From contig JARGNG010000004.1 of assembly GCA_029213265.1 (NCBI GenBank), forward strand, positions 62,001-126,000: a DNA stretch of 64,000 nt. The letters are read 5' to 3'. Below are positions 4,853-50,227 of the stretch, one piece after another. This stretch comes from Verrucomicrobiales bacterium. Its GTDB lineage: Bacteria > Verrucomicrobiota > Verrucomicrobiia > Verrucomicrobiales > DEV007. A model generated the notes under the pieces. The model was given only the letters and a program-made list of their open reading frames with translations. It was not told the origin of the DNA and made no database searches. The position numbers and the translations under genes were made by a program. Position 1 is the stretch's first letter. Each line of letters starts with the position of its first letter.

Positions 4853-5389
4853 CTAGGAGACGTCGACGCCCATCATGGAACGAAGGCGCTTGATTCCGGT
4901 GTGAATTAGAAAACCGACATTGCTTACGCTGAGGCCGGTTACTTCTGAAATTTCTTTGTAGCTGAGATCCCCCTGAAACTTGAGGCGGATTACTTCCCGC
5001 TGATTTTCAGGTAAGCGATCAAGAAAGCGGAGGACTTCCTCGAACTTCTCTTTCCGCTCCATGGCACGCGATGGATCTGGAGCACCATCGTTGAGGTTTT
5101 CAAATGCCTCACCCCCGGATGTCATCATCGGATTCTCTTTTCGAAGAACATCGATGGATCGATTGCGACAAACGGTGTAGAGCCAACTCTTCAACTTCCC
5201 CCGAATCATCTCAGGGTCCTGACGGTGCAGTTTAATAAAGGTATCCTGCACGACGTCGCGAGCGCGATCCCAGTCTCCTCCAAGAAGCCCGGCGGCATAT
5301 CCCGTCAACGGGCCTTCGAAATTCGCCTGAGCGGATTCGACTAATTCACGGGGAGAAACCTCCATATTGTGGACAACAAGAGCGGACAT
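4853..5389 (-). CDS. ECF-type RNA polymerase sigma factor
   Basis: This 178-residue protein is an extracytoplasmic-function sigma factor directing RNA polymerase to alternative promoters. Region 2 is visible as DTFIKLHRQDP followed by KSWLYTVCRN and RSIDVLRKE. Region 4 is visible as LPENQREVIRLKF with a helix-turn-helix in SYKEISEVTGLSVSNVG. It is the first gene of a two-gene operon with the anti-sigma gene. It is divergent from the NtrC-like regulator across a 288-bp AT-rich gap. Alternative start M9 is possible. The regulon is not deducible here. Confidence 0.88.
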   Translation of the reverse strand: MSALVVHNMEVSPRELVESAQANFEGPLTGYAAGLLGGDWDRARDVVQDTFIKLHRQDPEMIRGKLKSWLYTVCRNRSIDVLRKENPMMTSGGEAFENLNDGAPDPSRAMERKEKFEEVLRFLDRLPENQREVIRLKFQGDLSYKEISEVTGLSVSNVGFLIHTGIKRLRSMMGVDVS

Positions 5390-8341: not shown

Positions 8342-9736
8342 TTATTGAATTCCTCGGAGGAGTAGCTCGATGTTCGAATTTGTTGACTGAATCAACTTCA
8401 AGAGAATTTCCATCGCCTCAGGTGCAGGGCGCTGCGCCATTTGCTTTCTCAAGCTGCTAACCCGCTGGAACTCCTCCGGATCATACAACAAATCATCTTT
8501 CCGGGTGCCACTTTTCAGCAGGTGGATGGCCGGGAAGATCCTTGATTCAGCCATCTCACGATCCAATGTGATTTCCATATTTCCAGTTCCTTTGAACTCT
8601 TCAAAAATTACGTCGTCCATCCGGCTGTCCGTCTCGATCAAGCAAGTCGCCAGAATCGTCAGACTGCCTCCCTCCTCTACGTTTCGGGCCGCTCCGAAAA
8701 ACCGGCGGGATCGCTCCAGCGCTTTCGGGGAAATTCCGCCACTACCGATCGGGCCTCCTCCACCGCCGCCACCTCTGCGTCCCTGACGCTTCCCACCGCC
8801 GCCTCCACCGGACTGGTTGGCGGAGTTGTGGGCACGCGCGAGTCGGGTAAGACTATCGAGAAGAACAACAACATCCTTACCGGTCTCAACAATTCTTTTG
8901 GCACGCTCCAGAACCATGTCGGCCACCTCTACGTGACGTTTCGATGCTTCATCAAATGTGGAACTGTAAACGGATGCATCAACGGTCTCCTGGAAATCAG
9001 TAACCTCCTCGGGACGCTCATCGAGAAGTAGAACAATCAATTCCACATCCGGGTTATTCTTGTAAATAGAAACCGCAATGTTCTTCAACAGGATGGTCTT
9101 CCCCCCGCGTGGAGGAGCAACAATAAGGCCACGCTGCCCTTTCCCAAGTGGTGCAATCAAGTCAATCACGCGGGGAGACGGAGTGCTGTTTTCCGGCGTT
9201 TCCAGAATCAGTCGTTCCGAAGGAAAAAGAGCAGTCAGCTGATCGAAGCCTACAGGCTCCTCCCAGTCTTTCAAATCTTTCCCTTCCACCAGAAGAATCG
9301 ATTCCACAGAGAGAAACTTCTCCCTGTCTTTCGGAGCTCTCACCGTGCATCGAAGGAGCTGACCCACTCGAAGGTCGTTTTGCTTGATCAAGTTGGCCGG
9401 CACGTAAACGTCGTCGGCATTCGATGCAAAAGAGAAGTCGGGCCAGCGGAGAAAACCAAAATTATCGCCGGAAAAATCAAGGAATCCCTCCGCCTCCATT
9501 TCGGTTCCCCTCGCTCCATAAAACTTGAGCAGTTCGAAGATTATCTGATGCTTGGAACGGACACCGGCTACCCGCAAATTGGCTTCCTGTGCAGCTTGAT
9601 GCAACGCATTCAGCGAAAGTTGCTGAAACTCATTGATATTGATTTTCTCCGGGACCTGAATCTCCGGTTCCTGGGGCTTTTCTTCAGCTGCCGGGGTATC
9701 GACAGCATCGGGATCAACAGTGGCTTCGTCAGTCAT
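8342..9736 (-). CDS. rho: Transcription termination factor Rho with Gly/Arg-rich Q-loop insertion
   Basis: This hexameric RNA-dependent ATPase ends transcription. The 464-residue form starts at ATG 9736, whose ATGA overlaps the coaE stop; the longer reading frame back to 9817 lies inside coaE. Seen: an N-terminal helical part, a cold-shock-like RNA-binding domain (GFGFLRWPDF equivalent at about residues 90-105), Walker A APPRGGKT, Walker B VVVLLDSLTR, and an R-loop segment EEFKGTGN. Between LARAHNSANQ and the conserved FFGAARNVEEGG, the usual short Q-loop (GKVLTGGVD in E. coli) is replaced by about 25 residues, mostly Gly with KRQGRR in the middle (8735-8809). Family assignment is certain; the effect of the insertion is unknown. 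Confidence 0.95.
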   Translation of the reverse strand: MTDEATVDPDAVDTPAAEEKPQEPEIQVPEKININEFQQLSLNALHQAAQEANLRVAGVRSKHQIIFELLKFYGARGTEMEAEGFLDFSGDNFGFLRWPDFSFASNADDVYVPANLIKQNDLRVGQLLRCTVRAPKDREKFLSVESILLVEGKDLKDWEEPVGFDQLTALFPSERLILETPENSTPSPRVIDLIAPLGKGQRGLIVAPPRGGKTILLKNIAVSIYKNNPDVELIVLLLDERPEEVTDFQETVDASVYSSTFDEASKRHVEVADMVLERAKRIVETGKDVVVLLDSLTRLARAHNSANQSGGGGGGKRQGRRGGGGGGGPIGSGGISPKALERSRRFFGAARNVEEGGSLTILATCLIETDSRMDDVIFEEFKGTGNMEITLDREMAESRIFPAIHLLKSGTRKDDLLYDPEEFQRVSSLRKQMAQRPAPEAMEILLKLIQSTNSNIELLLRGIQ

Positions 9737-10347
9737 ACAAAAGTAAATAGTGGGTGACATCGTTGGACCAAATGAGACGCCTGCTCGCGTAGGGCATCCT
9801 CCGTGCCATCGTTCCAAATTACGAGATCAGCACGTTTCATCTTTTCTTCCAACAACATTTGAGAGTCGATTATCCGTTCCGCCAGATCATTCTTGATTTC
9901 CCGTGTCCGGGAAAGTCGTGAAAGCTGGGTCGCCCTTGAAGAAGCCACCACTAGATCCATGTCTCTCTTGAGTGGAAACTCCACCTCATACAACAAAGGA
10001 ACCTCGATCAGTAGTAGCTTCGCACTGCCGGAGTGAGATTTTACGAACGCGCAAACTCGCTCAAGCACCAAAGGGTGAAGGACGGATTCTAAGTTCTCAC
10101 GGAAATCGGAATTTTCAAATGCCCGTTCGCGCAAAAGAGACCTATTTACGCCTGAATCGCCCACTAGATCAATTGAGGAATCAAGGCTTGCGACCTGCCT
10201 TTGAACCGAATCCTCGTCGAACAGCTGAGCTACACATCGATCGCTGTCAAAACGGAACACCTGATCCGCGGGGGACTCGTTGAGCACCATCTCTGTGAAA
10301 CTCGATTTGCCGCAGGCAATCCCGCCTGTAATCGCAACGGTGATCAT
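9733..10347 (-). CDS. coaE: Dephospho-CoA kinase
   Basis: This enzyme phosphorylates the ribose 3'-hydroxyl of dephospho-CoA in the last step of coenzyme A synthesis. The 204-residue protein opens with the P-loop GGIACGKS (residues about 8-15). It then has FDSDRCVAQL, the acceptor-site aspartate region, and a HPLVLE motif followed by the IEVPLLYE strand, typical of CoaE. A start at 10371 would place the first codons inside a terminator hairpin, so ATG 10347 is chosen. It is translationally coupled to rho through an ATGA overlap. Confidence 0.88.
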   Translation of the reverse strand: MITVAITGGIACGKSSFTEMVLNESPADQVFRFDSDRCVAQLFDEDSVQRQVASLDSSIDLVGDSGVNRSLLRERAFENSDFRENLESVLHPLVLERVCAFVKSHSGSAKLLLIEVPLLYEVEFPLKRDMDLVVASSRATQLSRLSRTREIKNDLAERIIDSQMLLEEKMKRADLVIWNDGTEDALREQASHLVQRCHPLFTFV

Positions 10348-10354
10348 GAGAACG

Positions 10355-10387
10355 AAAAAAGCGCGACCCAATCTGAGCCGCGCTTTT
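10355..10387 (-). terminator. Intrinsic terminator after the secretin gene, in front of coaE
   Basis: A 9-bp stem (CGCGCTTTT at 10379-10387 with AAAAGCGCG at 10357-10365 on the plus strand) has a 13-nt loop. On the minus strand it ends in T6. It lies 28 nt after the secretin stop codon and just 7 nt before ATG of coaE, so coaE-rho-rnd expression depends on readthrough or on a promoter hidden here. Confidence 0.8.
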
Positions 10388-10415
10388 CGAAAAAGTAGCT
10401 GTACAAGGCCACCGA

Positions 10416-13079
10416 TTACTTCTGGTATGGAATTCCAGCACCAGGAGCAAATGTTGCTGGAGGTGTAATCGGAGGACGCGGAACAGGCTCAGGAAGTGGC
10501 TCGTCCTGAATCCGCCCATGGATTGGCATACCGGCCGGATCCATCAATTGGGCCTTCACAAAGATTGTCAAATTACGCTTCAAGTGAAGCTCAACACTCG
10601 AACGGAACAATCGTCCTACCGCCGGAAGATCACCAAGGAAAGGAATTTTGTCTTCCACATCCTGAATGTCTTCCCGAATCAATCCACCAAGAGCGACCGT
10701 CTGACCATCCCAAATCGTGACCTGCGTCGTGACCTTTCGGGTATTGAAGATCGGCATCTCGATACGGTTTTCGGTGATGATCACCGGCGTAATGATACCC
10801 AAAGCATTGGTGGAAGTGGTCTGAATCGGACTTCCGTAGTTGATGAATCCATCAAACTCCACAACCTCAGGGGCGAGATTCAAGTCAATCGTAAATTCAT
10901 CCGCTCCCAACACAGGATCTACTTCGAGAGTCACACCTGTGTTTCTAGTCTCAAACGCAGTTGGCGTTGCAGGGGTCACGGGGAAACCACCGCCTGTCGT
11001 AGTTCCGCCACCACCGTCGGTGAATCCAATCGATCCAAACTGGTTTGGAATTTCAGGCGGATCATACTCGGTCGGGTAGATGAACTCGCGAATCACTTCG
11101 ATTTTCGCCCTCTGTCCACTTCGGGCCATCACCGATGGAGCGGAGAGAAGGTCGACACCCTTTCGCTGGCTGAGAGCCCTGATCATAACTTGAAACTGTG
11201 GATCAGTGAAAACTCCGGCAATACCAAAGACGGCAGGTGCAAGTGAAGAGGCTCCGCCTGATGATCCGGCAGCCTCGGCAATGAGTGCATCGATCGTATT
11301 TCCATCAATTGCCTGAGAACCGGAACGGTTTCCGGCTGTCAAAGGATTGACACCCACAGGCAACTGAGTGCCAGGGTTTACAAAGGAGAAATCATTCGCT
11401 ATAGCCGGGCTGGAAATATTTCCATTAGTTCCGCCAGCGCCGAAGACACGAGGGGTGGACCCGAGGTTGAAAGGCCCGAGGAGCCAGTCGAATCCGAGTT
11501 CCTCACCATCTTCTTCCGCAATCTCAACAAAACGGGAGGTGATGTAAATCTGCTTTGCCACGTTCTGCTGAATGGAATCGATATACGCTTCCACCAACTC
11601 CATCTGGTCCTGCGTATTCTTCACGATCAACTGCGAGGTTGAGCCGTTGTAGATCGCAGTTGCACCGGTGCCAAAGGTAATCCCGGCGTTCTCAAGAACG
11701 GAGCGTGCCGTCGGGCGACCGCCTCTCAAACCACCGCCACCCGCTTCGACAGGGTCTGCGAAGGGGTCAGCCGCAGCAGCACCGCCACCACCGCCACCAC
11801 CGGCATCGGTGGAAAGGAAGGTCGGAGGAACCACATAGACATTTGTGAATAGATCAGCGTCAGGCGTGGAGAAAGGAACCACGAGCACGGCCTGAGGCTC
11901 TACTTTGTATTTTAGCTGGGCGAGGTTCGTCGTGTAACGAAGCGCTTCCGCCAGAGGAACATTGGAAAGACGCAAGGTAACCAATGTGTCAGCCACACCG
12001 CCACCGCCGCCACCACCGCCAGCAGCACCACCACCTGCAAATCCAAAGCCGCCATCATCACCCGCAGGTGCCGCCGGGGCAGCAGCACCTCCGCCGCCGC
12101 CCATGATGCCTGCGTCGAGAACGATGTTCACACCCTTCTTAGCAGGATTCGTCTCGCTAATATCGAGCTCAACACTACGCTGTTGAAGGAAATCGAGCGC
12201 ATCTTTCAGAGGTGTATCAGAAAACTCAACACTTGGGAGAACGATCGTTTTCAACTTCTCTTCGATGTTACGAATCTCAGTTGTGCTGCTATCAGTTGGG
12301 ATGTCGATGATTGGACCGCCGTCGATCCCAGCAGGGACAGGCATCTCCCAACCTTCGCGAACTTCGCGGAGGAATTTCGAGCGGGTATGGTTATACGCCT
12401 GATCGTAGTAATCCATCTTGTGACGCTCATTCTTTTCCTGACCACGTCGGGCCGCAACATTGAAGCGGTCCTCATTGAGAGCCTTGTTGAACTCACGATC
12501 GGCACGGTCATAGTCACCCAGGTTGATGTATCCATGGGCCGTCTTGAGGGCCAGCTTCACACGACGAACTCGCTCCAAATGGGCAGGAGTAAGAGCTGGA
12601 GAATAGTAATCCGGATCATTCAAACGCTCGAGAAGACGCTTCGCATCGATATTGTCCGGGTCTACGCTCGGGGCGAGGACTTCCTCCACCAGCGCAATCG
12701 CTTCGGGATAACGGCCTTCCTCGGCACGCTGCGTAGCGAGAAGAACGCTGGCACGCGCAAACTGCTTGATGTAAGCCCGACGACGCGGTTCGGTCATTGG
12801 CGCATCAGGAAGAAGATCAAGAGCCGCGCGGTATTGGTCGATCGCGCCCTGGTAGTCACCATCGGCCATCAGCTGGGAGCCACGCAGAGCGGCCTCATCA
12901 GCCTTCTTCACACGCTCCTGGAGCCGGATCACATAGTTGGTAGCGATAGACGGCACGCCTCCACCACTGCCATACCCGGGGCCGGCAATGACTTGTGCAC
13001 TCCCGCCAACCAATGCAGCAAGGATTGTCATCTTGACGCCAACTGCGACAGTCGTATTCAAAATCGATTTGATTTTCAT
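10416..13079 (-). CDS. Secretin of the Amuc_1098-type pilus-like system
   Basis: This is an outer-membrane secretin expected to form the gated channel of a type IV pilus-like or type II-like system. The 887-residue protein has a signal peptide ending near AQVIA (about residue 32). TPR-like helices cover about 60-220, short N-domains about 270-410, and a second N-domain about 465-520. The secretin core (about 620-845) ends in WDGQTVALGGLIRE and KIPFLGDLPAVGRLF. Two linkers are nearly pure Gly/Ala (11988-12110 and 11715-11804). ATG 13079 is chosen because the frame upstream is not signal-like. It is the last gene of the locus and is followed by a terminator. Homology to Amuc_1098 is inferred from gene order and domain layout. 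Confidence 0.9.
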   Translation of the reverse strand: MKIKSILNTTVAVGVKMTILAALVGGSAQVIAGPGYGSGGGVPSIATNYVIRLQERVKKADEAALRGSQLMADGDYQGAIDQYRAALDLLPDAPMTEPRRRAYIKQFARASVLLATQRAEEGRYPEAIALVEEVLAPSVDPDNIDAKRLLERLNDPDYYSPALTPAHLERVRRVKLALKTAHGYINLGDYDRADREFNKALNEDRFNVAARRGQEKNERHKMDYYDQAYNHTRSKFLREVREGWEMPVPAGIDGGPIIDIPTDSSTTEIRNIEEKLKTIVLPSVEFSDTPLKDALDFLQQRSVELDISETNPAKKGVNIVLDAGIMGGGGGAAAPAAPAGDDGGFGFAGGGAAGGGGGGGGVADTLVTLRLSNVPLAEALRYTTNLAQLKYKVEPQAVLVVPFSTPDADLFTNVYVVPPTFLSTDAGGGGGGGAAAADPFADPVEAGGGGLRGGRPTARSVLENAGITFGTGATAIYNGSTSQLIVKNTQDQMELVEAYIDSIQQNVAKQIYITSRFVEIAEEDGEELGFDWLLGPFNLGSTPRVFGAGGTNGNISSPAIANDFSFVNPGTQLPVGVNPLTAGNRSGSQAIDGNTIDALIAEAAGSSGGASSLAPAVFGIAGVFTDPQFQVMIRALSQRKGVDLLSAPSVMARSGQRAKIEVIREFIYPTEYDPPEIPNQFGSIGFTDGGGGTTTGGGFPVTPATPTAFETRNTGVTLEVDPVLGADEFTIDLNLAPEVVEFDGFINYGSPIQTTSTNALGIITPVIITENRIEMPIFNTRKVTTQVTIWDGQTVALGGLIREDIQDVEDKIPFLGDLPAVGRLFRSSVELHLKRNLTIFVKAQLMDPAGMPIHGRIQDEPLPEPVPRPPITPPATFAPGAGIPYQK

Positions 13080-13163
13080 AAAAAATTCTGGCTCAAACGG
13101 TTCGGGGAAGATTCTAGTAGTAGAATCGGAATCAAAACCAGAAAATACCCCTAATGTCAACTT

Positions 13164-14132
13164 TTACTTCTTCTTAATTTCGAGAGTTTTCTCAGGTCCG
13201 TCTGCGCTTTGGTAAGAAATCATGGTGGAATCCTCATTCACCTTCACAACGCGGTATTTCGTATCCGGATCTTTCACGATATTGAAGGCATCTCCTTCTT
13301 TCACGAAAAATTTCTTACCAGGCTCCAGTTCGAACTCCAGCTCGGTAAAATAGGTGGGCAAAACGGTGTCTACGTTTCGTATCAGCTGAAATTCCTCGTC
13401 CTTCGGCAAATAGGTGATCGTAAGAACCGATGCATCCACTTCAATTCCAACGCTGCTCCGGGCGCGCTTCTCCTCGAAAGCGTCCAATCGGAACTGTTTG
13501 TCTTCGGAGATCTCTCCAATTCGAAGATAAAAGTTATCGCGCTGTGGCCATCTATTCGTGGGAAGGCGCATGATTTGAAATCGTTCCGCGTCAGGACGGG
13601 CCGAAAACTTGAGCTTGTACTCCTGCTGCTGCCGCGAATGCATAACGACCTTCCCCGCATAGGAAGGATGAGAGTCAGGATCTCTGGGCGCGGTCTTTTC
13701 ATTCCACTCTGTCAAATTGGTAAATCCATCACCATCTGTATCCTGCGAAAGCACTCCTGCGTTCAAGAAATCCAGCTCGTTCTCCATCAACCAGGAGTTG
13801 GTGACTGGCTCTCTGAGTTTCGGAGCATTCGGATCCAGCATGTCGATCAATTGCCCCCCAGATTCAACCACGGGAATGGAAACAAAAAGAGGCACCACTT
13901 TGGGGGGGGATCCCTTTTCAGGAGTTTTCCATTCAGGATTCACATCGACCACGATTTTCGCGTTGGAAACACGCTCGATCGGAATTTCCGGAAGCTCATT
14001 ATTGGGCTTCGCGGCCTCCATCGTAAACCTCTCCGAAAACCCCAGCGCCTTCATGACGAAAAGGCCGGACAGGCCGAGCACCACCACGCTCACGGCCGCC
14101 AGTAACATTTTATCCCAAGCGTTCTTATTCAT
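13164..14132 (-). CDS. Amuc_1099-like membrane-anchored periplasmic protein
   Basis: This 322-residue protein has one N-terminal membrane segment (about residues 9-30), a linker, and a periplasmic domain. Around residue 135 it carries DTDGDGFTNLTEW, a calcium-binding loop of the EF-hand/thrombospondin type-3 kind. The rest is predicted beta-rich. Its ATG overlaps the TAA of the preceding gene by one base, which suggests coupled translation. Position three genes after the 1102-like gene and next to the secretin matches Amuc_1099 of Akkermansia. Its biochemical role is unknown; bridging the inner-membrane complex to the secretin, as PilP does, is a guess. Confidence 0.75.
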   Translation of the reverse strand: MNKNAWDKMLLAAVSVVVLGLSGLFVMKALGFSERFTMEAAKPNNELPEIPIERVSNAKIVVDVNPEWKTPEKGSPPKVVPLFVSIPVVESGGQLIDMLDPNAPKLREPVTNSWLMENELDFLNAGVLSQDTDGDGFTNLTEWNEKTAPRDPDSHPSYAGKVVMHSRQQQEYKLKFSARPDAERFQIMRLPTNRWPQRDNFYLRIGEISEDKQFRLDAFEEKRARSSVGIEVDASVLTITYLPKDEEFQLIRNVDTVLPTYFTELEFELEPGKKFFVKEGDAFNIVKDPDTKYRVVKVNEDSTMISYQSADGPEKTLEIKKK

Positions 14133-15151
14133 TATCGCTTCTTACTGTTAGAATTGTTTTTCTCATCCTTCTTTGCCGCAGCATTCTGTTCCGCCGGACT
14201 CACGAAGCGGGCGATGTCCACAACCATGAAGACATTGAGCATTTCCTGTCCCATCAGGACTCTCGCATCCTGCTTGTCCATTTCGAAGCCCTCTTCACGG
14301 GCTGCCTGAATCAATTCGTCTTCACTGGCGTCCGGAAATCCCCATTCCACCAATTTGGCGTAATCAGCCTGTTCACCGGATACTGGGTTTTTGAAATTCG
14401 GCAGATCGGTAGTCCCATCTTCGGACACCAACTTGATAGGACCTTCCTGCTGATCATTACGAACTTTCAGGACTCGGAGGATGTAGAAGAAATCCTTGTC
14501 GTTGGCCATCTTGTTGATGAACTCCTGAAAGGCATCATGCCTCGCACGGATCCGCATCCGTATCGGATACTTGTGTACCACGCTGCTTTCATGGTCCTGG
14601 GCTCCACTTTCCTCGCCGGGAATGGGATCCCTCTCAAATGTTTCGAGGGCCACAGCACCGGAATCTACCAATTCGCGGAGCAGGCGATCAATCGCTTCCA
14701 ACTCGTAATCCAATAATGGCACCAGTTCCGGCGCTGGAATATTGGCCGCATAGACATCAAATCCCAATTGGAATTCACCCGGATCTTCGAGCAACGCCAT
14801 CTCATTCTCCTTGGCATATCCGCGAAACTCCTGGACTCGCTGGCGAACTAACTCCTGAAACTCCGTGTTTGTCAGCTCTGTATTGAGCGGCCTCTGAAAA
14901 GTTTGCAAAGCCTCGTAGAGGTCGTTTACAGCCTTTTCGTAATCCCCCTTCTTTTCCGCTAGCAATTGCGAGTTTTCCTCGTTGGGATAGGGGACTTTCC
15001 GTTCCAAGCTCTCGATTGTCCGCACCTTCTCATCCCAGCTGCCAAGGGCGCTCGAATATTTCTGATACTGTGAAAACGCGTAGAAGCCGGCGCCTCCAAT
15101 GACAAGCGCTGCGATCACCCCAAATGTTGTTAACCAAACCTTATGATTCAT
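14132..15151 (-). CDS. Amuc_1100-family pilus-associated protein (PilO-like position)
   Basis: This 339-residue protein has an N-terminal membrane anchor (about residues 7-28) and a coiled-coil region at about 30-110. A periplasmic alpha/beta domain follows (FQLGFDVYAA, then the strand YPIRMRIRARH before a helix FQEFINKMAN). This layout and its position between the PilM-like and 1099-like genes fit the Amuc_1100 family, best known from the Akkermansia protein reported to act on host TLR2. By topology it corresponds to PilO. I infer homology from layout and synteny, not from an alignment. Confidence 0.82.
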   Translation of the reverse strand: MNHKVWLTTFGVIAALVIGGAGFYAFSQYQKYSSALGSWDEKVRTIESLERKVPYPNEENSQLLAEKKGDYEKAVNDLYEALQTFQRPLNTELTNTEFQELVRQRVQEFRGYAKENEMALLEDPGEFQLGFDVYAANIPAPELVPLLDYELEAIDRLLRELVDSGAVALETFERDPIPGEESGAQDHESSVVHKYPIRMRIRARHDAFQEFINKMANDKDFFYILRVLKVRNDQQEGPIKLVSEDGTTDLPNFKNPVSGEQADYAKLVEWGFPDASEDELIQAAREEGFEMDKQDARVLMGQEMLNVFMVVDIARFVSPAEQNAAAKKDEKNNSNSKKR

Positions 15152-15179
15152 AGTCTTTCAGAATCGAAAATCCTAAAGA

Positions 15180-16925
15180 TTACTTCGAAAATTTCACCTG
15201 ATTGTCTTCCGGAAGAGGAATTACCATTTTAAAAGGATAGGCATACCGGTCGTTCCCGGTTCCCGCATCCACCTCAATTACATCGCTGATATCGACTCCC
15301 TCGAGGGCGAAAAAATTACCCCCGACGCCAGCCTCAGCATCTTCTTTCAGGCTTTCAAAGTAGCTGTATACGACCTGAGACTTACCGGGAGCGTTTTCGC
15401 GCCACAGTCCTCCTATCGAGAAGGAATCAATAGTTGATTCCACTCCTGTCGAAACAGCGGAGAGATCCGTCGCATCATCGGAAATGATGGGTCGACCTTC
15501 CGAAAGGGGTTCGAGCAAGGTAAAGAAAATTGCGTCTCCACTCAGTTTCTCACCCAGATAGTTAAAAACCCGAACCCAGTAGGAACGGTGCGTGGTCGCA
15601 TCAACGAAAGGCTGCTGCTGACCATCCAGAGTCACGATGGCCGCCTCTAGATCTTCAATCTCCTCGTTGTATTTTTTGAGATCGTCCGCTTTTCGCTCAA
15701 TCTCCTCCGCCTTCGCAGTGGTTACCTCCGCACCTTTCGTGAAAAAGAATCCCATGGCACCGAGGAACGCCGCCAGACATATCAGAGCAACGATCAGTGC
15801 CGGCTTCCTTTTGTTGAGATCCTTGGCCTTCTGAACGGACTCGGGAATCAATTCAATATCGACCGGAACCTCACCAGCCTGGCTGAGCGCGCTTCCCACG
15901 ACCTCTCCCAGAGTATGGGCATTTGCACTGACCAAATCATGGTCAGCACTGCCCGCTACGCTTACATTTCGAAAGGCATTGAAGTAGTCGACGGGGAGAT
16001 CGAGCTTTTCCGCGAAAAACTCACGGATGAACGGAAGACTGGAAGTCGAACCGCTCAGCAAGACAAATGCGGGAGCTCCCCCGCCCTGCTGGCTCCGATA
16101 AAATGTAATCGTCCGCATGATTTCCGAATGCAGACGGGTCAGAGAGTTTCTTACCACTTTCGAAATCCCGGCAATCTCCGGATCTTCGTGGTCGGCATAG
16201 GCACCGCCCAGGGCGACAAACCCATCTTTCACCTTTCGCTGATCGGCAGAGCTGAAATCAGCTCCAAATTCTTTTGCAATAGCCCGGGTGATGTCAGCCC
16301 CTCCGATCTTAACCGTTCGGATAAAGACCTTTCCGCCCTCCATGAAAATCATGTCCGTGGTCCGTGCGCCGATATCGACGAGAAGCGTAGCCTCCTCAAC
16401 ATCCCCATAATTGAATCGCAAAGCATTGTAGAGAGCCACCGGGGCCACTTCCGCGCCCATCGAACGAAGACCGGAACCCAATACCACCTCATCAATCTCA
16501 TTCAGTTCGTCAGACTTGACCGCGGCGAGAACGACTTCCACCTCGATGTCGTCCGGATCACCGGTCAACTGATATCCCCAAACCACTTCATTGATCGGGT
16601 AAGGAACCTGTTGCTGTGCCTCAAACTCAACAATCTGATCTACTTGAGAACCATCGAGCGCAGGAAGGCTCGCGAACTTCATAAGGACCGGGAAAGAGGA
16701 TACTACATAGGTGGTTTTTGCGCCCTTCGCCTTCAGGCTGGTGACGATCTCTTTCAAAGCGGCTGCACTCTGGGAATTCCGCGTATCTTCGTCAGCAGGA
16801 TCTCCAACAAATTCACGCCGCTCGATACGGTCCAGGCGAAGCCCTCCGCCACCGGTCTTCGAGAACACTGCTCCGGTGATCTGCTGTGACCCTATATTGA
16901 ATGCGATGATTCGATCGTCTGCCAT
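15180..16925 (-). CDS. pilM: PilM-PilN fusion-like protein (Amuc_1101 type)
   Basis: This 581-residue protein combines two pilus assembly functions. Residues 1-350 form an actin-like ATPase of the PilM/FtsA superfamily: the phosphate 1 region is IAFNIGSQQITG, phosphate 2 is LLVDIGARTTDM, and the adenosine-side motif is LLSGSTSSLPFI. Residues about 357-370 (ELIPESVQ) resemble the PilN start. A membrane helix lies at about 374-395, then a coiled coil and a small periplasmic domain. PilM and PilN are separate proteins in Proteobacteria, so this fusion anchors the ATPase-like part directly in the membrane. It lies third from the end of the operon, 28 nt before the 1100-like gene. Confidence 0.85.
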   Translation of the reverse strand: MADDRIIAFNIGSQQITGAVFSKTGGGGLRLDRIERREFVGDPADEDTRNSQSAAALKEIVTSLKAKGAKTTYVVSSFPVLMKFASLPALDGSQVDQIVEFEAQQQVPYPINEVVWGYQLTGDPDDIEVEVVLAAVKSDELNEIDEVVLGSGLRSMGAEVAPVALYNALRFNYGDVEEATLLVDIGARTTDMIFMEGGKVFIRTVKIGGADITRAIAKEFGADFSSADQRKVKDGFVALGGAYADHEDPEIAGISKVVRNSLTRLHSEIMRTITFYRSQQGGGAPAFVLLSGSTSSLPFIREFFAEKLDLPVDYFNAFRNVSVAGSADHDLVSANAHTLGEVVGSALSQAGEVPVDIELIPESVQKAKDLNKRKPALIVALICLAAFLGAMGFFFTKGAEVTTAKAEEIERKADDLKKYNEEIEDLEAAIVTLDGQQQPFVDATTHRSYWVRVFNYLGEKLSGDAIFFTLLEPLSEGRPIISDDATDLSAVSTGVESTIDSFSIGGLWRENAPGKSQVVYSYFESLKEDAEAGVGGNFFALEGVDISDVIEVDAGTGNDRYAYPFKMVIPLPEDNQVKFSK

Positions 16926-16951
16926 ATCCGATACTTTAAAATAAATGCTTA

Positions 16952-16971
16952 GGCCGGAGATCTCTCCGGCC
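16952..16971. other. Perfect 9-bp hairpin between the 1102-like and pilM-like genes
   Basis: GGCCGGAGA and TCTCCGGCC are separated by two bases, in the 73-nt gap inside the pilus operon. No T-run follows on the minus strand. It could be a partial terminator or an mRNA-stabilising structure that sets the ratio of the upstream to the downstream proteins. Confidence 0.55.
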
Positions 16972-16998
16972 CCGAGTTTTTCTTCCTCTCGAAATCTA

Positions 16999-17604
16999 CT
17001 AGTCCTTCTTCACATCAGCGTAGCGATCAATCCAAAGCAACTCGAAAGGCGTTTCGTGCTTCGGAAGGACTCCGGCTGTCGTTCCTGTTTTTTCCCAGAA
17101 CTTCTGACTGGCGCCGGACAGGGAGGATTTCAGTCCCACAAGAACGCCGTTGTAGAAAATCTCAACGCCGTATCCAGCAACATCCGATGCCTGAAAATTC
17201 CGATACTCACCGGTCACTTCCCCCAATGTGTCGGGCGAGATGTAAGCAGCAGAAAAAGTTTCCTCGCCAACCAGAACATTCTTGTGAATCACCTGCCCGG
17301 TGAGTGTTCTTCCATTGCCGCTCTGGTCTTTAAAACCAACGTAGTACTTCACAAGCAATTCCGGGAGGACTGCATTGTCAGGTGCGCGAACGTCCACCTC
17401 GAATTCGATTTCCAACTCCACCCAGTCGCGCGGATTGGGTATATTCTTATCCTTCAGTCCACCGGCCTGGAATTGCGGAGTCTGCTGAACTTCCAGTTCC
17501 AAAGCCTCCACCTTCACATCTCCAGGCTTAATGTTAAGTTGCTGAGCATCCGCTGAAATTGCGAAAAGGCAGCATGCGACAACAAGTATGAGGATTTTTT
17601 TCAT
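16999..17604 (-). CDS. Amuc_1102-like secreted protein
   Basis: This 201-residue protein has a clear signal peptide (MKKILILVVACCLFAISADA, cleavage after ADA). The mature part is rich in beta strands (WVELEIEFEVDVRA, LPELLVKYYVGF), consistent with an immunoglobulin-like fold. It is the first gene of the five-gene set matching the order Amuc_1102-1101-1100-1099-1098. The family is largely uncharacterised. It starts 10 nt after a small unknown gene, so the transcript probably begins further upstream. Confidence 0.78.
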   Translation of the reverse strand: MKKILILVVACCLFAISADAQQLNIKPGDVKVEALELEVQQTPQFQAGGLKDKNIPNPRDWVELEIEFEVDVRAPDNAVLPELLVKYYVGFKDQSGNGRTLTGQVIHKNVLVGEETFSAAYISPDTLGEVTGEYRNFQASDVAGYGVEIFYNGVLVGLKSSLSGASQKFWEKTGTTAGVLPKHETPFELLWIDRYADVKKD

Positions 17605-18158: not shown

Positions 18159-18920
18159 CTATCCCGAAATCACACGGACCCGAACATACTTTTTCGGTCC
18201 GGTTTTTCCTTTCGTGGAAACGCTATCGGTTTCTGAGAAAAGCTCCCCGGACACGTTTTTGTACTTCAGGAAATCGACCAGAAAACGAACCCGGTTTTCC
18301 GCAATGACCGAGTCGGAGGATTCATATTCGGTATCGTCAGCCCCGCCCTCCACGCGAAAACGGGCTGACGGGGATCGCTCCAGAACCTGCTCAACAAACC
18401 GGTAGACCTTTTCGCGCCCGGTAAGACTTACGGCAGACCCTGCGGCATATTCGATCAGAATGTTGGCTCCTCCGGCCGGGCTCATCTCCGACTTTGCCGC
18501 ACTCTTTTTATCCGGCGCCGCCTTCACTCCATTCACTTTCCCTGCAATCTCTCCGGGCCGTTCCTTCAAAAGTCGTTTTTTCAATTCGCGAACTTTCTGA
18601 ATCGCTTTAGACAATTTCGCTCTCGTCTCCCGTTCTTTCTCTGATTCAAGAAGAGGAGAATCAGCCTCCGGAGGAAACTCAATTTCATGATCTTTGAGCA
18701 AAGCCTCCAGGGTAGCGACCCGATCGACCATTCGGGCCAGTTCCAAATGAGCCTCATGAAGACTTTCTCGTGCCTTTCTGAGATCCCCTGTCAATTCACG
18801 AATCGTCTCCTTTTCATAGGACTCCGCATGTGAGTCCGGGACCCAGCTGAAGAAAGTCAAAATGCAAAAGAGACACTGCACGATGAAACGAGACGAGATC
18901 ATCGTGGAAAGAATGAGCAA
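18159..18920 (-). CDS. Secreted coiled-coil protein with OmpA-like C-terminal domain
   Basis: This 253-residue protein has an N-terminal signal sequence ending near SHA. A coiled coil of about 80 residues (LRKARESLHEAHLEL and onward) follows, then a basic linker. The C-terminal domain resembles OmpA (ANILIEYAAGSAVSLTGREK, then the Glu/Asn-containing helix VIAENRVRFLVDFL). By family knowledge such domains bind peptidoglycan, so it may tie the wall to an envelope complex. A second ATG at residue 7 is also possible. It lies between khpA and the pilus genes on the same strand, so a link to the pilus-like apparatus is plausible but unproven. Confidence 0.65.
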   Translation of the reverse strand: MLILSTMISSRFIVQCLFCILTFFSWVPDSHAESYEKETIRELTGDLRKARESLHEAHLELARMVDRVATLEALLKDHEIEFPPEADSPLLESEKERETRAKLSKAIQKVRELKKRLLKERPGEIAGKVNGVKAAPDKKSAAKSEMSPAGGANILIEYAAGSAVSLTGREKVYRFVEQVLERSPSARFRVEGGADDTEYESSDSVIAENRVRFLVDFLKYKNVSGELFSETDSVSTKGKTGPKKYVRVRVISG

Positions 18921-45809: not shown

Positions 45810-48800
45810 TCACCTCTTCCGGAGAACCTTCACCCCGACCCGGACACGGTCCGTGACCTCCGAAGCGCTGCTGGAACGTCCCACTACCGTCCCTGTTACT
45901 CTTCTCTTTTTCGGATTCAACAGCTTGAGTCGCATTTCGTAGTTCTCGCGCCCACCCCCGGTGAGACCTTCCGTTTGAAAATTCCCGGACCAAACCGCAG
46001 CGGTGATGTTCTCTTTCGATCCGGAAAGACGGGAATACGAGAATCGGGCACTCCGATGACCCTTCGTCCCGCGGATCAAAATCTCCTCGGGCAACTCATC
46101 ACTCTCCGAGGTAAAGAAGAAGCGGATGCTCTTTCGATTTCCCATTTGAACCTTCTTCATCCCCAGACGGGTCAGACCATACACATCGCCGCCCGCCAGC
46201 GTGGAAAGAGAGGATCCAACCGACAAATCAGGTCGCGCCGGCATCGCCGCCAGCAAAGTTGGCTCTACCGTTTGCCCCGAAATCCCCGCGGCATTGACCG
46301 CCTGCACCCAGTAGTAGGTATCCACAGCCGGGTTCGCCTCGTCATCCTCATACAGAAATCCGCTCGTAATTTCCGTGAGCTCGGCCTCTCCGAAATTCAT
46401 CGTCGTTCCACGGAAGACGCGATAGCTGCCTCCCCCTGCATCGGTCCAGGTAAGCTCATTGGTTCCGGGACTGATCCGGCGGATCGTAAGGGTCACGGGG
46501 ACGGACCTAAGTGGCAGCGGCAATTCCACAGACGTATTCCCAACCGAATAGACCAACCGCACCCCGGCGGTATGGCCTGTGCGAATCCATTCCGGCAGTC
46601 GAAGCCGGACCTCCCCCGGCAGGCTGCCGGGCTCAAAGGAAACCGAAGGATCCAGAGACCACGGACCAGTTGATTCGTCCGCTGTCGTTTCCGCCTTCAG
46701 CCAGGCGTTCTCCGGGATTTCCGAATCGAGGACAAACCGGAGAAATCCCCCCTCTTCGTCGCTGCCCGGCTCAAAGGGGCTTGCAGAAATCTGATCCGGC
46801 AACAATTCGTGAAACTGCTCCGCCAGGTTGGGGAGATCGTCTTCGTCCGGATCATCCGACGGATCCCGATCCTCGACGGCGACTCCCGCGATTCCATTGA
46901 TCCAATCCTCAAACGAGGGCAAATCCGTCCGCCTAAGAACCGCCCGTAGCGTAGGTCGAAGGTTCGCATCCGCCGCTTCCCGCGAAGCATAGCGAAAAAC
47001 CGTCGCCGAAGTTTGCTGCGATTGAATGCGGAAACCGAGCGACAGAATTCCATCCTCCGCGTTTTCGACGCCGGTCCGCGATGTTAGATCGAAGTTCTGA
47101 GTCAGTGTCGGGGCCGGGCTCCAAACCGAAAGCGATTCTCCAAAAGCGGGCCGGCTTGCCCAGGTCAGGCTGGATTCATTCCACGAATCGTCGGAGGTAA
47201 AAAACGTCTCCGCAACGCAGTCAGTATCCGGGATCCCCGCGTGGATTTCCAGGCTCGCAACTTCCACAAGCACCCCGCTCCACTCCGCGAGATCAAACTG
47301 AAGAAAGAACTCCCGGTCATAATCCGTCCCGTTCACGTTTTTCATCCAAAGACTTGTCCCGGTATTGAACCCCTGATTTTGAGAACCGGGATCGCCAAAA
47401 ACAAAGCCGTCCGCCACCGGAGTCATCTCGCCGGAAAACAGAGCCGGTCCAAAGACGCGCACGGTAACCGTATCCGAAGACTCCGCGAGCGGATGATCCA
47501 TGCCATTCAGGCGGGCTACGCAGGTGAACTCGTATTCGCCCGGACCTGGCAGAGCCACCCGGGGCGAGAGAGTCGAGGTGGAATCAAACACCGCCCCGGG
47601 AGGACCGCCCGTCTGGCTCCACGTGATCGTTCCATTCCCGGGAACAACTTCGGCATCGCCCCACCGAACCAAACCCGGAAGCGGAATGCGGTTCACCGGA
47701 AAATAGAAACTCATCTCATCTCCGAGATCGACCTTCGGCAGGCCCAGCCTCCTCCCGAACTGATCCAGGTAGAGCGAAAAAGGATCGAGCGAGTCCCCGG
47801 CGCCGACCCCTTCCACATGATCGACCGGATCTGTTTTCTCCGTCGACGTGCCACCGGTTTCAACCGCCGTCACCGCTCCTCTCGTCCCCACGACGTAGCC
47901 ATAGCGGGACTGCTGCGAATGCACCACTTTCCCAATCGGGCTCGACTCCCCTAACAGATTCCAAAAGACGGTATGGGCCGAAGTCAGATTGTGCTTCGGA
48001 GCCGTGCCGTAGGGCCGGTAGTGAGCCGTAAACCAGGAATTTTTCACCCGGCAAACATCGACCAGATTCGAATGGGAAAAGCGCATGTGATGGTCACTCG
48101 CTTTGCCCGAAGTATTGTAACTGCCCGTTGACCCCGTCGCCTTTCCGGTATCCCTGTCGAGACAATCGTGAATCACATTTCCCGACGAGCCCATGTGGGA
48201 AAAGACAATCCCGTGACGACTGAACTCCGCCGTGCAGCGTTGCACGAGACACTCATTCGAATTGGACAATCGAAACATGTACCCGTTTCCCCCGCCACCT
48301 CCATATTGAGGGCGCTGAAAATGGCAGTCTTCGACGGTGACGCCGCGACACTCCGTCAGAAGAAGACCATTGGATAAAAGATGGGCACCGCTCGTGTTTC
48401 CCGAAGCCTGAAAGGTGTCCACTCTCCGCATCCACGAGTTCCTCGCGTTGCGCCAGCTGATCAGATACGAGGCGTGTGTGTCGTAGGCACTCTTCGCAGG
48501 ATCGGTGTAGTCAGACTCTCCCCAGTTGTTTCCGGGATGCTGCACCCCGCCGATCGAAAAATCCTCCAGCCCCACCTCGGCGAGCGCGTTGTTTCGAATG
48601 TAGACTCTCGCGTTGTCTCTCGTCTTGATCGCATACCGGGTCGGCGCATCGATGATCAGTCGATTGCGGGCGGCATCGATCTCCAGAATTTGACGGGAAT
48701 AGCGCAAGCCTCCGAGAGAAGATTCATATCCCAGCCAGAGAGGCTCTTTGTGTTCCGTCACCCATTCGGGCGTGACGTCCGTGCGAATCACGATCCAGTC

Positions 48801-49388
48801 ACCCACGGCAAAAGGCGCCACATCCGCCACGGGAATCTCGAGAACAGGTCCGGGAAGATCTTCCGTGATCGTATAAGCCGTCCCGCTGTTATACCCCCAG
48901 TGCGGTGTACTCCCCGTGATCTCAATGACGCGCTTGCTCCGCATTTCATAGGATGTGCAGAGGAGAAAAGTCTGGTCTTTCCCCGCCCCTCTCATCACGA
49001 CCGGGGACCCATTGATCCGCAGTGCGAAATTCTGTCCTGTTCCCGGAGCGACCGCAAAGGTCCCCGCAGGAAGATAGACAACGCCTCCTCCGGCCAACTC
49101 GGCGGCATCGATCGCCGCTTGAATCGCCGCCGTGCTGTCGTTCACACCGGTCGGATCCGCTCCGTAGTCGTTCACCACGTGGAAGACCGGTCCCGCCACA
49201 TCAGGAATCGACTGCTCGCCCCGGTGATATCCCGCGTAGGAAAAATCCTGAATCAGCTTGTCGGTGTAGAAATCGAGCGCCGGAACGGGGCTCCAACCCG
49301 CATCATACAGGGGCGACTCCCAGGCCACAACCGGGAGAATCCCCGGCAAAAGAATGGCCAGAAAAAATTGTTTCCACTTCCGATTCAC
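45810..49388 (-). CDS. Large secreted pectate-lyase-like/DNRLRE-domain protein
   Basis: This 1192-residue protein starts at GTG 49388 with a signal peptide (residues 1-22, ending VVA). Residues about 69-110 match the pectate lyase superfamily opening (VVNDYGADPTGVNDST followed by GGGVVYLPAGTF), and a right-handed parallel beta-helix runs to about 500. A PKD-like domain is at about 575-647, a DNRLRE/CBM96-type domain at about 655-815, and a fibronectin-III-like domain near 950-1060. The tail is basic, with no visible sorting signal. It may degrade or bind a polysaccharide; catalytic residues cannot be placed. The longer frame to 49580 is rejected as non-signal-like and overlapping its neighbour. 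Confidence 0.82.
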   Translation of the reverse strand: MNRKWKQFFLAILLPGILPVVAWESPLYDAGWSPVPALDFYTDKLIQDFSYAGYHRGEQSIPDVAGPVFHVVNDYGADPTGVNDSTAAIQAAIDAAELAGGGVVYLPAGTFAVAPGTGQNFALRINGSPVVMRGAGKDQTFLLCTSYEMRSKRVIEITGSTPHWGYNSGTAYTITEDLPGPVLEIPVADVAPFAVGDWIVIRTDVTPEWVTEHKEPLWLGYESSLGGLRYSRQILEIDAARNRLIIDAPTRYAIKTRDNARVYIRNNALAEVGLEDFSIGGVQHPGNNWGESDYTDPAKSAYDTHASYLISWRNARNSWMRRVDTFQASGNTSGAHLLSNGLLLTECRGVTVEDCHFQRPQYGGGGGNGYMFRLSNSNECLVQRCTAEFSRHGIVFSHMGSSGNVIHDCLDRDTGKATGSTGSYNTSGKASDHHMRFSHSNLVDVCRVKNSWFTAHYRPYGTAPKHNLTSAHTVFWNLLGESSPIGKVVHSQQSRYGYVVGTRGAVTAVETGGTSTEKTDPVDHVEGVGAGDSLDPFSLYLDQFGRRLGLPKVDLGDEMSFYFPVNRIPLPGLVRWGDAEVVPGNGTITWSQTGGPPGAVFDSTSTLSPRVALPGPGEYEFTCVARLNGMDHPLAESSDTVTVRVFGPALFSGEMTPVADGFVFGDPGSQNQGFNTGTSLWMKNVNGTDYDREFFLQFDLAEWSGVLVEVASLEIHAGIPDTDCVAETFFTSDDSWNESSLTWASRPAFGESLSVWSPAPTLTQNFDLTSRTGVENAEDGILSLGFRIQSQQTSATVFRYASREAADANLRPTLRAVLRRTDLPSFEDWINGIAGVAVEDRDPSDDPDEDDLPNLAEQFHELLPDQISASPFEPGSDEEGGFLRFVLDSEIPENAWLKAETTADESTGPWSLDPSVSFEPGSLPGEVRLRLPEWIRTGHTAGVRLVYSVGNTSVELPLPLRSVPVTLTIRRISPGTNELTWTDAGGGSYRVFRGTTMNFGEAELTEITSGFLYEDDEANPAVDTYYWVQAVNAAGISGQTVEPTLLAAMPARPDLSVGSSLSTLAGGDVYGLTRLGMKKVQMGNRKSIRFFFTSESDELPEEILIRGTKGHRSARFSYSRLSGSKENITAAVWSGNFQTEGLTGGGRENYEMRLKLLNPKKRRVTGTVVGRSSSASEVTDRVRVGVKVLRKR

Positions 49389-49441
49389 AAGAGGAAAAAC
49401 TATCAGGAAGCAGTAGCAAAGACAACGGCAATCGGAGTCCT

Positions 49442-50227
49442 CTACAGCTTCACCGCACGGCTCGCCGCCATCATCGGCATCCAGCCCTGGAGCCCGGTTG
49501 ACTCCTCGTCCCAGTCGTCTTCGTAGAATCCCGTGATCGCAAAACCGGCGTCGCATTGGCCACCGATCTGCTCTTCCCAACTGTGGCTGAACTCAACACT
49601 CAACTGCGCCTCCATCTGATCGGAGAGCAACTCCGCTTCGGCATGCTCCAGATCAGAATACGGGAGACGATGCTTCACCACCAACTCGCCGGTCTCCTCC
49701 AACAGCTCGTGATCAAACAGGAAAAACGCCGGATTCATAAATCCGCAAAGCAGCGAGCCGCCCGGTTTCAGAACCCGGTGGCATTCCTTCCAGATCGGAG
49801 GAAGCGACTCCGCAAACACATTCGAAACTGGATTAAAAATGAAATCGAACGCCCCGTCCTCCAACCCTGTAAGGTCCGCCATGTCACCCTGTTGAATCAC
49901 GATGGAAAGCCCGAGCCGGGCACAGGTCTCTTCGTCTTTCCGCAACTGCACATCGGAGGCATCGAAAGAAACCACCTCCGCTCCCGCCGAGGCAAAAATC
50001 GGCACCTGCTGGCCGCCGCCACTGGCAAGCGCCAGAATCTTCACTCCCTTCATATCCGGGTAGGAAGGGAACCACGATTCCGGAACCGGCTTGTTCGGCG
50101 TGAGAATGACCGACCACTCCCCTGCTTTGGCCTTTTCAAAGACCTCATCCGGATACGGCGTGCTCCAGCGGCAGCCTTCCTCCGACTGCAGATTCCAGGC
50201 GTTGCGATTGTATTCGGTGATGTTCAT
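49442..50227 (-). CDS. Class I SAM-dependent methyltransferase
   Basis: This 261-residue enzyme has the SAM-binding motif I as ILALASGGGQQVPIFA, the acidic ribose-binding end of strand 2 (VVSFDASDVQL), GDMADL for the adenine site, and FIFNPVSNVF as motif IV. The methyl acceptor is unknown. It resembles the Methyltransf_11 type proteins that act on small molecules. M8 of a slightly longer frame (50248) is used as the start. It is divergent from the ABC exporter genes. Confidence 0.85.
   Translation of the reverse strand: MNITEYNRNAWNLQSEEGCRWSTPYPDEVFEKAKAGEWSVILTPNKPVPESWFPSYPDMKGVKILALASGGGQQVPIFASAGAEVVSFDASDVQLRKDEETCARLGLSIVIQQGDMADLTGLEDGAFDFIFNPVSNVFAESLPPIWKECHRVLKPGGSLLCGFMNPAFFLFDHELLEETGELVVKHRLPYSDLEHAEAELLSDQMEAQLSVEFSHSWEEQIGGQCDAGFAITGFYEDDWDEESTGLQGWMPMMAASRAVKL

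Follow-up and report, generated by a model that had tools for sequence, protein, structure and literature searches.

The closest described system is the Amuc_1098-1102 (MUL2) locus of Akkermansia muciniphila, with its aquatic orthologues. Mucin accumulation requires the MUL genes (Davey 2023, as summarised in PMC12418764), Amuc_1098 is located in the outer membrane (PMC4960237), and a likeness of Amuc_1100 to pilus and type II secretion system (T2SS) proteins is already published (Wang 2020, as cited in PMC13119276). Aquatic Akkermansiaceae and other Verrucomicrobiales are already known to carry a MUL2 locus with coaE/rho synteny, and Methylacidiphilales to lack it (PMC13174399, April 2026 ISME J). 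The locus studied here, found in a 64,000-nucleotide stretch of DNA (the window), is of this already known kind, in a further Verrucomicrobiales genome: it has the same five genes, of the same families and in the same order, and the same coaE and rho neighbours. It differs from Akkermansia MUL2 in sequence divergence only, PilM being 31% identical to two Akkermansia-type sequences (G111 and G021), and the window's lineage is a separate family within the same taxonomic order. What we add is small, namely a parts list, a co-occurrence analysis and a structural match for the 1099-like protein. We read the locus, with high confidence, as belonging to a distributed type IV pilus: it would encode the trans-envelope alignment complex and the outer-membrane gate, and the other parts would act in trans. 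This reading would settle the puzzle of the locus: an Amuc_1098-1102-type locus would supply a single module of an ordinary type IV pilus whose genes are distributed, the remaining modules being unlinked to it.

Window positions 10416-17604 hold five minus-strand open reading frames, transcribed in the order Amuc_1102-, 1101-, 1100-, 1099- and 1098-like. The genes, order and strand given in a preliminary description of this DNA are all confirmed, and the Akkermansia Amuc_1102-1098 order that it claimed is borne out by NCBIfam matches to the five families in sequence; the HMM searches that it proposed matched all five, the curated cut-off being exceeded by four of the proteins and the Amuc_1101 match falling slightly under. 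The first gene (16999..17604) encodes a 201-aa periplasmic protein of the Amuc_1102 family (MUL2A; NF042424, 126.6 bits, cut-off 55) with a Sec signal peptide (ADA/QQ). Between it and the PilM gene lies a GC-rich palindrome, GGCCGGAGA/TCTCCGGCC (16952..16971, minus strand; z -2.6), a possible attenuator or RNA-processing hairpin; an A-run precedes it on the transcribed strand. The second gene (15180..16925) encodes a 581-aa putative PilM-PilN fusion of the Amuc_1101 family (MUL2B; TIGR01175 pilM; PF11104), whose score against NF045709 is 619.1 bits for a cut-off of 650, yet this is its best family and it is in place among five adjacent, ordered families. There follow a 339-aa Amuc_1100-family protein with an N-terminal transmembrane (TM) helix and a PilO-like fold (14132..15151; NF038287, 187.2 bits, cut-off 180), a 322-aa Amuc_1099-family protein, likewise with an N-terminal TM helix (13164..14132; NF042425, 198.6 bits, cut-off 50), and an Amuc_1098-family secretin (PilQ) with an N-terminal TPR region (10416..13160; NF042912, 971 bits, cut-off 750; PF00263, 4e-31; TPRs by Pfam). 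The secretin frame as listed begins at an upstream TTG, and its true start is likely the ATG at 13079, judging from the signal peptide.

The terminator that had been noted past the secretin gene is real (10356..10388, minus strand; 15-bp stem, U-run, -21.6 kcal/mol, z -3.9); it is missing from the list of a consensus scan, and Rfam gave no match anywhere in the window. Beyond it, on the same strand, are the conserved neighbours coaE (dephospho-CoA kinase; 9733..10347; TIGR00152, 98 bits above cut-off) and rho (8342..9817; NF006886, 507 bits), both outside the machine. We also looked through a few genes further on for the 3-dehydroquinate dehydratase that belongs to the published synteny and did not recognise it there; 4853-5389 is a sigma-70 factor. 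On the other side of the locus, 18159-18920 encodes a coiled-coil protein (253 aa, secreted) for which Pfam gave no significant match; about a dozen close relatives have homologues of it upstream of the locus.

Across Verrucomicrobiales and Chthoniobacterales the genes keep their order. We compared 80 named loci, picked for having PilM and coming mostly from MAGs of these two orders, and found adjacency in 76/77 for 1102-1101, 77/77 for 1101-1100, 67/72 for 1100-1099, 56/63 for 1099-1098, 39/41 for 1098-coaE and 37/37 for coaE-rho; the five genes themselves therefore stay together in relatives (56/63 to 77/77), which was the comparison called for at the outset. The 1098-family model, which picks up other secretins too, has a match in 187 of the 195 genomes sampled from the phylum, only 19 of them above the cut-off. 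For the 1100 family, which is more specific, the figure is 149/195, with the match near the secretin in most genomes for which both places are listed. The non-Akkermansia copy singled out in the preliminary description thus exists and is not unusual, given these 149 genomes and the locus already described (PMC13174399). In two families, f5 (probably Methylacidiphilales) and f8 (small genomes), the locus, an above-cut-off PilT and a prepilin peptidase are all absent.

Within the window the locus has no linked gene for a pilin, motor, platform or prepilin peptidase, and the contig that carries it (C121) has no T2SSE ATPase and no N_methyl match. The genome-wide search for pilins and motors that had been suggested found 11 T2SSE ATPase and 23 N_methyl matches, all off C121. 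Contig C160 ends within PilB1, and C147 opens with the last PilB1 codons; PilB2, PilC and an N_methyl pilin come next, and the two contig ends share an exact 55-bp overlap. The PilB1-PilB2-PilC-pilin order is intact in three other genomes (G066, G188 and G013), and G021, which we take to belong to Akkermansia, has a tandem PilB and a pilin at matching places. PilB1 and PilB2 score 584 and 590 bits against TIGR02538, whose strict cut-off (675.65) neither reaches. C47 carries a PilT/PilU tandem (422 and 429 bits, cut-off 319) and C168 a prepilin peptidase (PilD). The genome holds, then, the extension ATPase, platform, pilin, prepilin peptidase and PilT retraction ATPase of a type IV pilus, alongside secretin, PilM and PilO homologues. 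The earlier statement that pilin, motor and prepilin peptidase are absent nearby is correct for the neighbourhood but does not extend to the genome, and of the two options drawn from it the results favour distant parts over a different sort of complex. The genome has further T2SS/pilus-like sets on C42 (a GspE-like ATPase, several pilins and a secretin), C152, C155 (GspE/GspF) and C125.

The distribution of one of these distant parts tracks that of the locus. As the scored feature we took an adjacent pair of high-scoring PilB genes, in a panel of 32 hand-chosen genomes that includes all locus-negative members of the class seen in the 1100-family survey; the locus-negative set covers families f4, f5, f6, f8, f11 and f35. 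The pair was found in 16/16 scorable locus-positive and 1/14 locus-negative genomes (Fisher p 1e-7, uncorrected for phylogeny; the panel genomes are related, so this value overstates the evidence). Two genomes were excluded from the count because of contig breaks (G136, with the pair on different contigs, and G146, with PilM at a contig edge), the window's own genome, with the pair split across two contigs, was counted by means of the 55-bp overlap, and in G116 the pair is 8 kb apart. The single exception, G108, has PilB-PilT-PilB and a prepilin peptidase (C6:17130-21654) without the locus, and thus the motor cassette can persist alone. This is a nearly complete small genome, with no recognisable Amuc_1101-type PilM, Amuc_1098-type secretin or 1100. 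PilT was tried as a marker of the locus and found uninformative; since it also occurs in locus-negative genomes (G010, G088, G108 and G143), the tandem PilB pair is the better marker.

Among the individual proteins, the 1101-like one has a PilM actin-like domain at about 10-347 that matches the solved M. xanthus PilM (3jc8, E 1e-26), a TM segment at about 375-398, and then a periplasmic tail. The INLLP motif of PilN binds PilM; past the PilM domain of the 1101-like protein is a PilN-like L-x-P motif (359-361), with L359 and P361 invariant in the PilM-N alignment. The motif, TM segment and periplasmic tail are what one would expect in sequence if PilN were fused to PilM. The 1100-like protein matches the solved Amuc_1100 (6kny, 6lad), and its AlphaFold2 model (pLDDT 91) aligns to 6kny with Z 21.5, to P. 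aeruginosa PilO with Z 10.5 (2rjz) and 8.8 (5uvr), and to PulM with Z about 7, above unrelated rows; by the fold of this model it is a PilO relative. The Pfam families displayed for 62 homologues of 1100 did not include PilO, nor did the Pfam matches of 61 homologues of 1099 include PilP/T2SSC, so the relation of both proteins to these families rests on structure. For the 1099-like protein (AlphaFold2 model, pLDDT 90.6), the best solved match is the GspC HR domain of a GspC-GspD complex (3oss_C), which aligns to the C-terminal beta domain over 65/65 residues (rmsd 2.5) with Z 8.4, the sole row at Z >= 8 and barely over the level where chance resemblance is common. Foldseek alone gave the model no significant match, and the link to GspC/PilP was not found by sequence profiles, so that the GspC-HR-like assignment is suggestive; we did not find it in the literature searched. 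The calcium loop that had been noted in this protein is real and conserved: within the DxDxDG loop (131-142), D131 is invariant and D133, D135, F137 and E142 are each at least 90% conserved among 61 homologues, and when the 1099 profile is compared to solved structures only EF-hand loops match, weakly (E 0.03-0.1).

The 1102-like protein matches the solved Amuc_1102 (7dsz) at E 8e-19. Amuc_1102 is reportedly similar in structure to an archaeal pilin, and we examined it as a candidate for the missing pilin. This was rejected: its homologues have Sec signal peptides, with a crude signal-peptide rule satisfied by 64/76 and the inspected failures resembling normal signals that the rule missed, and the prepilin motif occurs in 0/76, so 1102 is probably not a pilin. 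The likeness to an archaeal pilin should be treated with caution, given a protein that lacks the prepilin signal. A lipoprotein is likewise unsupported, with the lipobox pattern in 2/76.

Computed homologies, conserved order, the presence of the distant parts, their co-occurrence and the PilO fold lead us to infer that the locus and these parts form one machine. The putative PilM-N fusion would sit on the inner membrane alongside the PilO-like 1100. The 1099-like protein, GspC/PilP-like and anchored in the inner membrane, with a predicted calcium-binding loop, would reach the secretin, whose N-domain it may bind, going by the modelled fold. The 1098-like PilQ secretin, with its built-in TPR domain, would form the outer-membrane gate, and 1102 would be a secreted periplasmic accessory. 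PilB1/PilB2 for extension, PilT/PilU for retraction, the PilC platform, the pilin and the prepilin peptidase would act in trans. By analogy with what is reported for Akkermansia MUL2, complex glycans are most likely what the pilus attaches to or helps take up. Like the type IVa PilMNOPQ set of Pseudomonas and Myxococcus, the locus has a PilM domain, a PilO fold, a secretin and an inner-to-outer-membrane layout. It differs in that PilM and PilN are apparently fused and the motors unlinked, the place of PilP appears to be taken not by a lipoprotein but by a TM-anchored protein with a calcium loop and a GspC-like domain, the secretin carries a TPR region at its N-terminus, and there is an extra periplasmic protein, 1102.

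The likeness to T2SS GspC/GspD/GspL/GspM lies in the HR-like domain of 1099 and in a ferredoxin-like fold that the locus has in common with GspM/PulM and PulL, and raises the question of whether the secretin and the GspC-like 1099 instead export proteins, driven by a distant GspE/GspF-like set. The best solved match of 1099 is indeed a T2SS protein, extra GspE/GspF-like genes exist on C155 and C125, the score of the PilB2 on C147 is slightly better for GspE than for PilB, and with these other sets in the genome the secretin could in principle serve them. We nevertheless consider a T2SS improbable: the 1101-like protein is a strong match to PilM, with GspL reaching only E 0.03, the best family of the secretin is the type IV pilus-type Amuc_1098, a pseudopilin cluster is absent at the locus, and the companions are a PilB pair and PilT/PilU. 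To our knowledge T2SSs have no PilT/PilU retraction motors, and these are above cut-off in 186/195 genomes of the phylum.

The unlinked motors and pilin might also be taken to mean that the locus makes some other kind of secretin-based complex, for glycan uptake or attachment, which works without them, and Akkermansia MUL2 is indeed discussed as a mucin attachment/uptake system. We hold this to be very unlikely. Such a complex would be at home in a genome without motors or pilins, which the T2SSE and N_methyl counts contradict; since PilB1, PilB2, PilC, a pilin, PilT/PilU and PilD are all in the same genome, and the PilB pair tracks the locus, a motor-less machine is not suggested, and a PilM-N fusion and a PilO-like fold are typical of pilus/T2SS-type machines. 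That the genes are non-functional or repurposed leftovers seems extremely unlikely, as we found no point in favour, and the frames are open, a terminator is present, PilM is 68-81% identical in related MAGs, and the genes are kept together there.

If the distributed pilus holds for Akkermansia as well, the list of trans-acting genes (PilB1-PilB2-PilC-pilin, PilT-PilU and PilD) lets mutants probe the motor dependence of mucin uptake and of Amuc_1100 display. Should Amuc_1100 be a pilus part, we lean towards its host effect being incidental rather than an evolved surface signal.

We finally note some peculiar secretin arrangements. A second, solitary Amuc_1098-family secretin (815 bits, above cut-off) is found in the window's own genome (G000) on contig C175:20467-22839 (L069:6360-8945), where the other four genes are absent and the neighbour is an M28 peptidase/beta-propeller gene; genomes taken to be Akkermansia likewise have two secretins of this family. 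Five loci (L191, L195, L199, L210 and L217, at ~10-17 kb in each) have tandem full-length Amuc_1098-family secretins between 1099 and the coaE position, G125 has a tandem pair, and in G078 two secretins apparently share one frame of 1954 aa. Two loci (L172 and L188) keep 1102-1101-1100-1099, with the adjoining 1098-family secretin absent after 1099. Elsewhere in the window, the 1256-aa product of 45810-49580 combines a pectate-lyase-like domain with a carbohydrate-binding module (CBM96), which fits a glycan-degrading lifestyle.
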